Positions 9,916 through 24,649 of a stretch of DNA of 26,545 nucleotides are shown one piece after another. The notes under the pieces were generated by a model. The model did no database searches, was not told the DNA's origin, and saw only the letters and a program-made list of their open reading frames with translations. Position 1 is the stretch's first letter. Every line of letters begins with the position of its first letter. The position numbers were made by a program, and so were the translations under genes. This DNA is from a virus: IMG/VR virus record IMGVR_UViG_3300031885_000093, positions 1 to 26,545 of that record; one strand, given 5' to 3'.

Positions 9916-9944
9916 ATTATACCCATGCAACGTAGTTATGTCAA
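9916..9944 (-). promoter_or_regulatory. Sigma70-type consensus promoter for the primase operon
   Basis: On the minus strand TTGACA (9944-9939) is followed after 17 nt by TATAAT (9921-9916), preceded by TGGG. Both hexamers and the spacing are ideal for host sigma70. The predicted transcription start is near 9909, about 23 nt before the primase ATG. The -35 begins directly after the stop codon at 9946-9948 of the lysis-region gene. Confidence 0.9.
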
Positions 9945-9945
9945 G

Positions 9946-10347
9946 TTATTTGAATATGCCCAAATGGTTTAGTAAGAACACGAACCCTGCTGCACCACCA
10001 ATTAACAACCATCGCCAGTTTTCTAATGCTGACAATCTATCAGAAATAGCTCTGCTCTGTGTTGCAGATATATCTGCATGTTCCTTGATCTTTTCTTCTA
10101 TTCGAGTCTCCATGTCTTCTAGCTTTAATACTATTTCTCGTGTGTTATCTGCCATTTTACTATACAGGTCCCTGACATCAGTTAATGTCTCTTTATTTCC
10201 ATCTTCAAGGTGGTTTATTCTTGAATCGTGTACTGCTAATAATCTAGTTACTTCTGATGATGCTTTTGCTATTTCTGCAACAGTGTTATCTATTTTGTAT
10301 ACTACTGTGCGTAATACCGCAACTTCAACGTTAATATCACTTTGCAT
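9946..10347 (-). CDS. Coiled-coil protein with C-terminal membrane anchor (lysis cassette)
   Basis: The 133-residue protein is a long alpha-helical coiled coil (residues about 5-108, heptad-like with many Leu, Ile and Val) followed by one membrane segment (WRWLLIGGAAGFVFLLNHLGIF) and a single terminal Lys. This plan, cytoplasmic or periplasmic coiled coil plus tail anchor, is that of XhlA-like holin-accessory proteins. It overlaps the end of the i-spanin gene by 11 nt and is the last gene of the late module, which supports a role in lysis. It may be the holin, a holin partner or a membrane-bound structural factor. No endolysin gene is visible next to it. Confidence is high for the gene and low for the precise function. 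Confidence 0.75.
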   Translation of the reverse strand: MQSDINVEVAVLRTVVYKIDNTVAEIAKASSEVTRLLAVHDSRINHLEDGNKETLTDVRDLYSKMADNTREIVLKLEDMETRIEEKIKEHADISATQSRAISDRLSALENWRWLLIGGAAGFVFLLNHLGIFK

Positions 10348-10927
10348 TGTCTAGCTCCTTCTGTTGTCTAACCCAATCTTGTAGGGACTTTAGTTGTTCA
10401 ACTACTTCGTAATATGTACCGTAGTTTCTGCTAACGTTTTCGGCAATTCCAGAGAGTCTAATTTTGGTGGGGGATTCATTAGCAGCTCCGGTGGGTTCGG
10501 GAACTTCGTTCTTTGCGGAAGCATTGAGCAGCTGCACAAAACCAGTATTAACAACGCACTTAGAGTCAGATTCTTTATTAATATATTCTGGTACTTTCTT
10601 GATAATAACATTCGTTTTTCCTTTGACTATTCGAACTCGATCAACATATTTAGTGATAACTTGTGCAGTTATCTCGGCAGCAGCAAGTTCTTTCTTTGCT
10701 ATCTGTGCTTCCATCTGACTAACCTTGAGTTGCCATGCTGCTTCAGTACTAATAGCCCCTAGTGTATATACACCAAACGTGAATAGTAAGATAGATAGCA
10801 ATTCTAAAGGAAGTTTATATGTTATTGGTATTAATCTAGAAAATACAACTGCTATGCACATACCAGCAATACCAGAGAGCGTGATTACATAAAACATCCA
10901 GTTCGGTATAAAATTTAATATAAACAT
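10337..10927 (-). CDS. i-spanin (Rz-like) with two N-terminal membrane segments
   Basis: The 196-residue protein ends with the phage i-spanin signature: SKCVVNTGFVQLLNASA, then SGIAENVSRNYGTYYEVVEQLKSLQDWVRQQ. Before it lies a coiled coil (about residues 62-105) and, at the N-terminus, two hydrophobic segments (about 10-33 and 40-60). Standard Rz proteins have a single N-terminal anchor, so the extra segment is unusual and would place the N-terminus in the periplasm if the coiled coil is periplasmic. The o-spanin is encoded entirely inside this gene in another frame. Together the two would bridge inner and outer membrane and fuse them at lysis, which implies a Gram-negative host. The gene overlaps its upstream neighbour by 13 nt. 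Confidence 0.85.
   Translation of the reverse strand: MFILNFIPNWMFYVITLSGIAGMCIAVVFSRLIPITYKLPLELLSILLFTFGVYTLGAISTEAAWQLKVSQMEAQIAKKELAAAEITAQVITKYVDRVRIVKGKTNVIIKKVPEYINKESDSKCVVNTGFVQLLNASAKNEVPEPTGAANESPTKIRLSGIAENVSRNYGTYYEVVEQLKSLQDWVRQQKELDNAK
10402..10611 (-). CDS. o-spanin (Rz1-like lipoprotein) nested in the i-spanin gene
   Basis: The 69-residue frame lies wholly within the i-spanin gene, shifted by one base. It starts with a basic N-terminus (MLLSRKYQNILIK), a hydrophobic signal segment (LTLSALLILVL) and a lipobox L25-C26-S27-C28, giving lipidation at Cys28. The mature part is short and proline-rich (NPPELLMNPPPKL), typical of Rz1. AAGGA lies seven bases before the ATG, a good ribosome binding site. 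An outer-membrane lipoprotein of this form, in this position, is hard to explain by chance. It is the partner of the i-spanin in the last step of lysis. Confidence 0.88.
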   Translation of the reverse strand: MLLSRKYQNILIKNLTLSALLILVLCSCSMLPQRTKFPNPPELLMNPPPKLDSLELPKTLAETTVHITK

Positions 10928-11136
10928 ATTGTTATCCAGCCCTCATCGGAAAATTTATACCTTTCATGTCCTTTTACAAGAACACTAACATTGTCGAATT
11001 CTGATCTTATCCATCTGGCCAGACTACAATTATCTATGCCAATTATCTTAATGTATAATGAATCGTTCTCTGATTTAGTTTCGCACTTGATTTTAAATTT
11101 ACTTTCAACGTGTTTAACTATATCAGTTAATTTCAT
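10915..11136 (-). CDS. Small hypothetical protein, 73 aa
   Basis: I do not recognise this protein. It has 73 residues and is soluble. The pattern is KLTDIVKHVESKFKIKCETKS, then LYIKIIGIDNCSLARWIRSEF, then VSVLVKGHERYKFSDEGWITICLY: helix, strand, helix, strand, which looks like a small alpha/beta fold. Its start codon overlaps the stop of the 55-aa gene by an ATGA, and its end overlaps the i-spanin start by 13 nt, so translation is coupled on both sides. The position between virion and lysis genes gives no firm clue to function. Confidence 0.7.
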   Translation of the reverse strand: MKLTDIVKHVESKFKIKCETKSENDSLYIKIIGIDNCSLARWIRSEFDNVSVLVKGHERYKFSDEGWITICLY

Positions 11137-11300
11137 TTACGGGACATCACATTAGATAGTTTACGTTTTCTCTTCTTGTATGCATCAACAGAACCGGCGG
11201 TAGCAGGATCTGTAGAAACAGCAGTACCAGTAACATTGGTAGGACCACCGCCCATACCACCAGCACTCATTTCTAGTATAAAGTCTTTGAAGTTCTTCAT
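11133..11300 (-). CDS. Small Gly/Thr-rich protein, 55 aa, with a capsid-targeting-like start
   Basis: This short frame encodes 55 residues: MKNFKDFILEM, then a glycine-rich stretch SAGGMGGGPT, a Thr/Ala/Val-rich middle and a basic end YKKRKRKLSNVMSRK. It overlaps both neighbours by ATGA junctions (11297-11300 and 11133-11136), strong evidence for coupled translation, and it fills what would otherwise be a 160-nt gap. The start resembles the capsid-targeting sequence of T4 internal protein I (MKTYQEFIAE), where the prohead protease cuts after a (L/I)-x-E motif; ILE fits. Similar small proteins occur in marine T4-like phages. A role as a head internal or core peptide is inferred. Confidence 0.8.
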   Translation of the reverse strand: MKNFKDFILEMSAGGMGGGPTNVTGTAVSTDPATAGSVDAYKKRKRKLSNVMSRK

Positions 11301-11683
11301 AATTGTCTTAGCCTGTCTGCAACACCCATATCCATTAGTATATCGGATGAATTTATGTCTACGCCATTAATACCTGTTATGATGTCTGGCATCATGTTTA
11401 GATATATCAGGAACGTTTTGAGTATTCCATAATCATCAGGATCAACCTTAAAGAACAGTATTCTTGTTGTTGCTTCAGGTCCAAATACATTACTCAATAA
11501 AATTATATGGTTCAGTATAAGTCTTTCTTTCAAATCGCTTATTGTATTGTATCTTCTGAATAATCTCTTGATATATTTGGTACGTCTGATATCAGATTCG
11601 AATTCGGACATTATGCATCTAGGTGCCGAATAGCACTTCAATGCATAAATCTGAAAGTTGTCGTCACATAATACAGAAAACAT
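11297..11683 (-). CDS. Conserved T4-like phage protein, 128 aa
   Basis: The 128-residue, mostly helical protein matches by eye a family common in marine T4-like phages. Marks are FQIYALKCYSAPRC near the start, SEFESDIRRTKYIKRLFRRY, DLKERLILNHIILLSNVFGPEATTRILFFKV, then a leucine-rich end with LNMMPDIITGI. I believe this is family DUF7207, but I cannot confirm the accession. No function is known. It lies 8 nt after the virion-protein gene and is coupled by ATGA to the 55-aa gene, within the late module, so a structural or assembly role is possible. Confidence 0.8.
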   Translation of the reverse strand: MFSVLCDDNFQIYALKCYSAPRCIMSEFESDIRRTKYIKRLFRRYNTISDLKERLILNHIILLSNVFGPEATTRILFFKVDPDDYGILKTFLIYLNMMPDIITGINGVDINSSDILMDMGVADRLRQL

Positions 11684-24620: not shown

Positions 24621-24649
24621 ATTATACTTCGATATCAGCATCCTGTCAA
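24621..24649 (-). promoter_or_regulatory. Sigma70-type consensus promoter for the polymerase operon
   Basis: On the minus strand TTGACA (24649-24644) is followed after 17 nt by TATAAT (24626-24621). Both hexamers and spacing are ideal. The predicted start is near 24614, 20 nt before the polymerase ATG. The -35 overlaps the TGA stop codon (24646-24648) of the preceding gene. Confidence 0.9.

Follow-up and report, generated by a model that had tools for sequence, protein, structure and literature searches.

The spanin genes of phage lambda, encoding the inner-membrane i-spanin Rz and the lipoprotein o-spanin Rz1, share the same DNA, the o-spanin gene lying in the +1 frame within the i-spanin gene (PMC6139136). 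Rz comprises a transmembrane segment (TM), a coiled coil, a linker and a C-terminal helix, and Rz1 a prolipoprotein signal followed by a proline-rich mature part. This 'embedded' class makes up 182 of the 528 catalogued two-component spanins, in which the o-spanin as a rule begins at 0.4-0.5 and ends at 0.9-1.0 of the length of the i-spanin, and 507 of the 528 have, in one component or the other, one or more periplasmic cysteines in addition to the lipidated residue (PMC6139136). Rz has one TM with N-in/C-out topology, and with an artificial transmembrane domain (TMD) it is fully functional (PMC5295617). Extra i-spanin membrane segments were noted in 2012 in phage phiCbK (PMC3556154).

Here we describe a spanin locus in a window (the whole stretch of DNA analysed) of 26.5 kb with T4-like replication genes, namely those for DNA polymerase, a UvsX-like recombinase, a DnaB-like helicase, primase and both ribonucleotide reductase subunits. 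The pair is very probably a two-component spanin of the embedded class belonging to a T4-like environmental phage, anchored by a membrane hairpin and acting in the ordinary manner of spanins. The i-spanin gene (10337..10927, minus strand; 196 aa) is placed between a 73-aa open reading frame (ORF) upstream on the same strand, with which its start shares 13 nt, and a 133-aa gene for a coiled-coil/TM protein, itself upstream of primase, with which its stop end shares 11 nt; the Shine-Dalgarno sequence predicted ahead of it is weak. The o-spanin gene (10402..10611, minus strand; 69 aa) is contained entirely within it, in the +1 frame at an offset of 316 nt, occupying nt 317-526 of 591, or 0.54 to 0.89 of the i-spanin length. 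Lambda has the same nested +1 arrangement, and the composition of both Rz and Rz1 outlined above recurs in the window proteins, although family searches report no sequence similarity between the two pairs. The coordinates, lengths and frame given for this nesting in the original prediction are all correct; full nesting is no oddity, this being the standard lambda architecture (PMC6139136).

The i-spanin is identified by its ORF, by PHROG matches, by annotated homologues and by fold matches. Its residues 34-190, the periplasmic domain, match the profile of phrog_4952 with E=2.4e-43, and several Rz-like spanin PHROGs match it more weakly; searches of Pfam and NCBIfam returned no model for either protein. 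PHROGs files family 4952 under 'signal peptide motif / other' and not under lysis. An i-spanin annotation together with a nested o-spanin is nevertheless carried by homologues from the Burkholderia phages Mana and AP3 and from Stenotrophomonas phage Salva, and, judged by sequence, PHROG 4952 is a spanin family, which gives a function to proteins called 'signal peptide motif' or hypothetical in databases. In public phages, those PHROG 4952 homologues that carry an annotation are i-spanins of the embedded class. Aptresvirus AP3 and Mana, Pseudomonas phage Bise and Caulobacter phage Cr30 share with the window a homologous periplasmic domain and a nested +1 o-spanin, mostly with FPxPPxxLM, and differ from it in having one TM each in the i-spanin. 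A periplasmic cysteine additional to the lipidated one is present as Cys124 of the i-spanin (10556..10558, minus strand), which hardly varies among 31 aligned sequences (conserved in at least 90%) and is a candidate for an intermolecular disulfide.

The o-spanin, which Rz-like spanin PHROGs match only weakly, is further recognised by its ORF, a conserved motif, a shuffle test and a drop in synonymous rate. The lipobox Cys28, proline-rich mature part and ribosome binding site described in the original prediction were all found, the last being read as AAAGGA (10619..10624, minus strand; 7 nt ahead of the ATG). The lipobox is L25-C26-S27-C28 (LCSC; Cys28 codon at 10528..10530, minus strand), the Cys28 column is invariant across seven aligned o-spanins, and the signal peptidase II site is called by this pattern and its conservation; position 29 is Ser, so there is no Asp at +2, and by pattern the signal is that of an outer-membrane lipoprotein. 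The proline-rich motif FPNPPELLMNPPP (10465..10503, minus strand), taken from the alignment and the family table, falls within a stretch that relatives conserve as C..P..FPNPPELLMxPP.

That the overlapping bases are constrained in both frames, as had also been claimed, is borne out by comparison with relatives. Scans of IMG/VR gave 49, two of which end at a contig edge before the region, leaving 47 testable relatives (about 39 distinct); every one has a nested +1 lipoprotein with C...FPxPPxxLMxxP or a close variant, including one (L008) in which the o-spanin frame is also of 69 aa, and alignment found no relative with this frame interrupted. Cr30, Bise and Mana, relatives with a single TM, have the nested o-spanin too. 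Over 45 pairs at 60-97% identity, pS in the i-spanin frame is 0.26 in the overlap, against 0.56 for periplasmic codons outside it and 0.60 for TM codons, and this approximate halving holds at 45-60% identity (0.41 versus 0.77). When the i-spanin protein was kept fixed and its synonymous codons were resampled, 0.5-0.9% of trials produced a +1 stop-free run of at least 74 codons, and none of 10,000 reshufflings produced a lipoprotein-like ORF, so a chance origin of the nested frame is excluded.

It is in its membrane anchor that the i-spanin departs from lambda Rz. Our hydrophobicity script finds two segments, at about residues 10-32 and 35-56; the scale is one that we implemented ourselves, and it is relied on only for contrasts with controls. 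One segment each is given by lambda Rz, P2 LysB, Mana, AP3, Bise, Cr30, Salva and Pluto. TM1 (10832..10900, minus strand), which in the window protein is the more strongly hydrophobic segment, corresponds to a modelled helix at 9-28, and TM2 (10760..10825, minus strand), which is marginally hydrophobic (about +0.57 on our scale), is supported by the AlphaFold2 model and the alignment. TM2 aligns with the lone TM of those homologues that have just one, which makes TM1 the additional element. The hydrophobic hairpin proposed for the N-terminus is thus recovered by the script, by AlphaFold2 and in 28 distinct aligned sequences, the window's included, from T4-like contigs; the second segment, for which a membrane-spanning character had been left to be settled, is retained as membrane, corresponding as it does to lambda's single anchor. 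Most T4-like relatives have two segments; in L013 and L014 the second is marginal or falls under the cut-off. The start site and the N-terminal motif M-[FW]-[IL]-L-x-F-[IL]-P are likewise conserved in the 28 sequences. In these, the loop between the segments has K/R in 28 and D/E in three, and the N-tail has K/R in two and D/E in 23; by the positive-inside rule, this charge pattern makes an N-out/loop-in/C-out topology likely. The i-spanin accordingly has the N-terminal inner-membrane anchor and periplasmic helical/coiled-coil domain of an embedded spanin, and lacks the type II topology of lambda Rz (single N-terminal TM, N-in/C-out). The expected change in topology relative to Rz is therefore upheld for the N-terminus, which is predicted to flip, but not for the coiled coil, which is predicted to stay periplasmic, so that the mechanism should be unaffected.

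A short hairpin occurs also in three contigs outside T4-like synteny (L050, L053 and L055). On the tree of the periplasmic domain parsimony gives three changes for the hairpin, with one possible, the tree being poorly resolved at depth, where several long branches meet. A profile search of genome contigs with the family alignment returned one relative only, a single-TM protein in a Pseudomonadota metagenome-assembled genome, and for this reason no host is assigned to the hairpin clade.

The AlphaFold2 model of the i-spanin (mean pLDDT 79.7, pTM 0.49) has helices at residues 9-28, 35-115, 128-138 and 158-194, the second being continuous from the membrane (TM2) into the coiled coil. Its periplasmic part (residues 57-115; 10583..10759, minus strand) is CC1-like, and the C-terminal helix (residues 158-194; 10346..10456, minus strand), in which the alignment shows a conserved NY..Y....QLK.LQDWV, is CC2-like. 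The modelled helix layout agrees with the TMD-CC1-linker-CC2 plan of Rz, plus one extra helix. Fold matches include viral proteins bearing the name 'Spanin, inner membrane subunit' (E=1e-3), a pair of uncharacterised proteins from uncultured phages (E=6e-12 and 1e-5) and, weakly, one called 'Phage lambda Rz-like lysis protein' (E=0.12).

Among described i-spanins a parallel to this anchor is gp105 of Caulobacter phage phiCbK, which has an N-terminal hydrophobic domain ahead of its anchoring TM and yields two segments by the same script, but differs from the window protein in its overlapped architecture and in having no meaningful sequence similarity to it. Literature searches on two-TM i-spanins mostly returned two-TM holins, phiCbK being the exception, and in the open-access literature we found no description of a T4-like environmental clade that combines embedding of the pair with conservation of the hairpin, which is weak evidence of absence. 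Whereas T4 itself has separated spanin genes, environmental T4-like phages of this group use an embedded spanin, and their conserved two-helix i-spanin offers a natural test of the view, suggested by lambda genetics, that the spanin anchor is a passive tether.

For localisation, complex formation and lysis by the pair we infer the following course. After export and lipidation at Cys28 the o-spanin would reside in the outer membrane, while the i-spanin would be held in the inner membrane by its two-helix hairpin, N-terminus out, positive loop in and C-terminus out, the TM2 helix leading into the periplasmic coiled coil, then the linker with Cys124 and finally the C-terminal helix. By analogy with lambda, this last helix would bind the proline-rich o-spanin, and on degradation of the peptidoglycan by the endolysin the complex would collapse and fuse both membranes, as proposed for Rz/Rz1. 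Since the working domain is periplasmic as in lambda, the mechanism should stay the same. No holin or endolysin was identified in the 26.5 kb window, and the tie to a lysis cassette consequently rests on homology. In one relative (L004) a larger second lipoprotein-like ORF and a phrog_181 endolysin (1236-1637 and 1844-2455) lie just downstream of the spanin pair, the endolysin at a distance of a few genes.

How far could the same data be read otherwise? The weak family matches of the nested ORF might be taken to mean that it is a chance open frame and that the o-spanin lies elsewhere, but a reading that has to accommodate the reshuffling result, the retention of the ORF in all testable relatives, a suppression of synonymous change in the overlap only and the o-spanin annotation of homologous nested ORFs in Mana, AP3 and Salva retains a negligible probability. 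Were translation to begin at M11 or M23, both internal, or TM1 to be cleaved or peripheral, the product would be a single-TM type II i-spanin, a reading in keeping with the weak upstream Shine-Dalgarno sequence and with the one TM of the homologues from P2-like phages, Cr30 and Bise. This we regard as very unlikely, given that the start and the first nine residues are conserved over the 28 sequences, which the internal Mets are not, that it is TM1 which is the more hydrophobic segment and which AlphaFold2 models as a helix, and that the N-tail does not carry the positive charge that a signal peptide should have.

If the hairpin is accepted, the question then is what TM1 does. Most likely it is an elaborated anchor, perhaps aiding insertion, oligomerisation or contact with a membrane protein, with the mechanism unchanged; Rz tolerates an artificial TMD (PMC5295617), so a differently built anchor is tolerable and anchor identity of little weight. 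A dedicated lysis role, either coupling to a holin or a membrane disruption of its own, as speculated for phiCbK-like i-spanins, appears unlikely to us, though it draws on the conservation of the TM1 helix in the whole clade, on the sufficiency of one TM for a simple anchor (PMC5295617) and on the proposal of the phiCbK authors that extra TMDs coordinate with the holin (PMC3556154). Against it, divergence is faster in the membrane part than in the remainder (pN 0.21 versus 0.12), as would be so for a generic anchor, no holin partner is identified, and the hairpin may merely ease insertion or dimerisation. Still more doubtful is the idea that the N-out hairpin has a second inner-membrane job in this clade, for example in holin docking or timing, which would couple outer-membrane fusion to hole formation. 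Should TM1 matter, this would support the phiCbK proposal of communication between spanin and holin.

The spanin pair lies in a divergent island. In a comparison of the window with the relative L003, nucleotide identity over 10400-11400 is 58-88%, the flanks being at 91-100%, and this suggests, from sequence, that the spanin module was exchanged by recombination; there are other divergent islands too, so mosaic exchange is general in this comparison. The slot upstream of the 133-aa gene and primase holds spanin-like pairs also in methylophage Melnitz and pelagiphage HTVC008M, both Kyanoviridae. Each consists of a small TM protein with a single TM and a lipoprotein, annotated as hypothetical and of presumed spanin identity, overlapped in Melnitz (L060, 1609-2344) and separated in HTVC008M (L061, 2182-2715). 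Such differing architectures at one slot suggest a spanin slot that may have been refilled.

The 133-aa neighbour (9946..10347, minus strand) is XhlA-like, with a coiled coil and a C-terminal TM (111-133), and matches Pfam DUF7201 at E=6e-12; a gene of this kind beside primase is conserved among T4-like phages of marine origin, cyanophage P-HM2 (T4-like GC 201) being one of them. It was considered as a holin and dropped, as it adjoins primase in cyanophage and pelagiphage genomes without such an adjacent spanin. Two perfect sigma-70 consensus promoters (TTGACA-17-TATAAT) are present on the minus strand, one between this gene and primase (9916-9944) and one just upstream of the DNA polymerase gene (24621-24649), and both are likely, by their sequence, to be phage early promoters.
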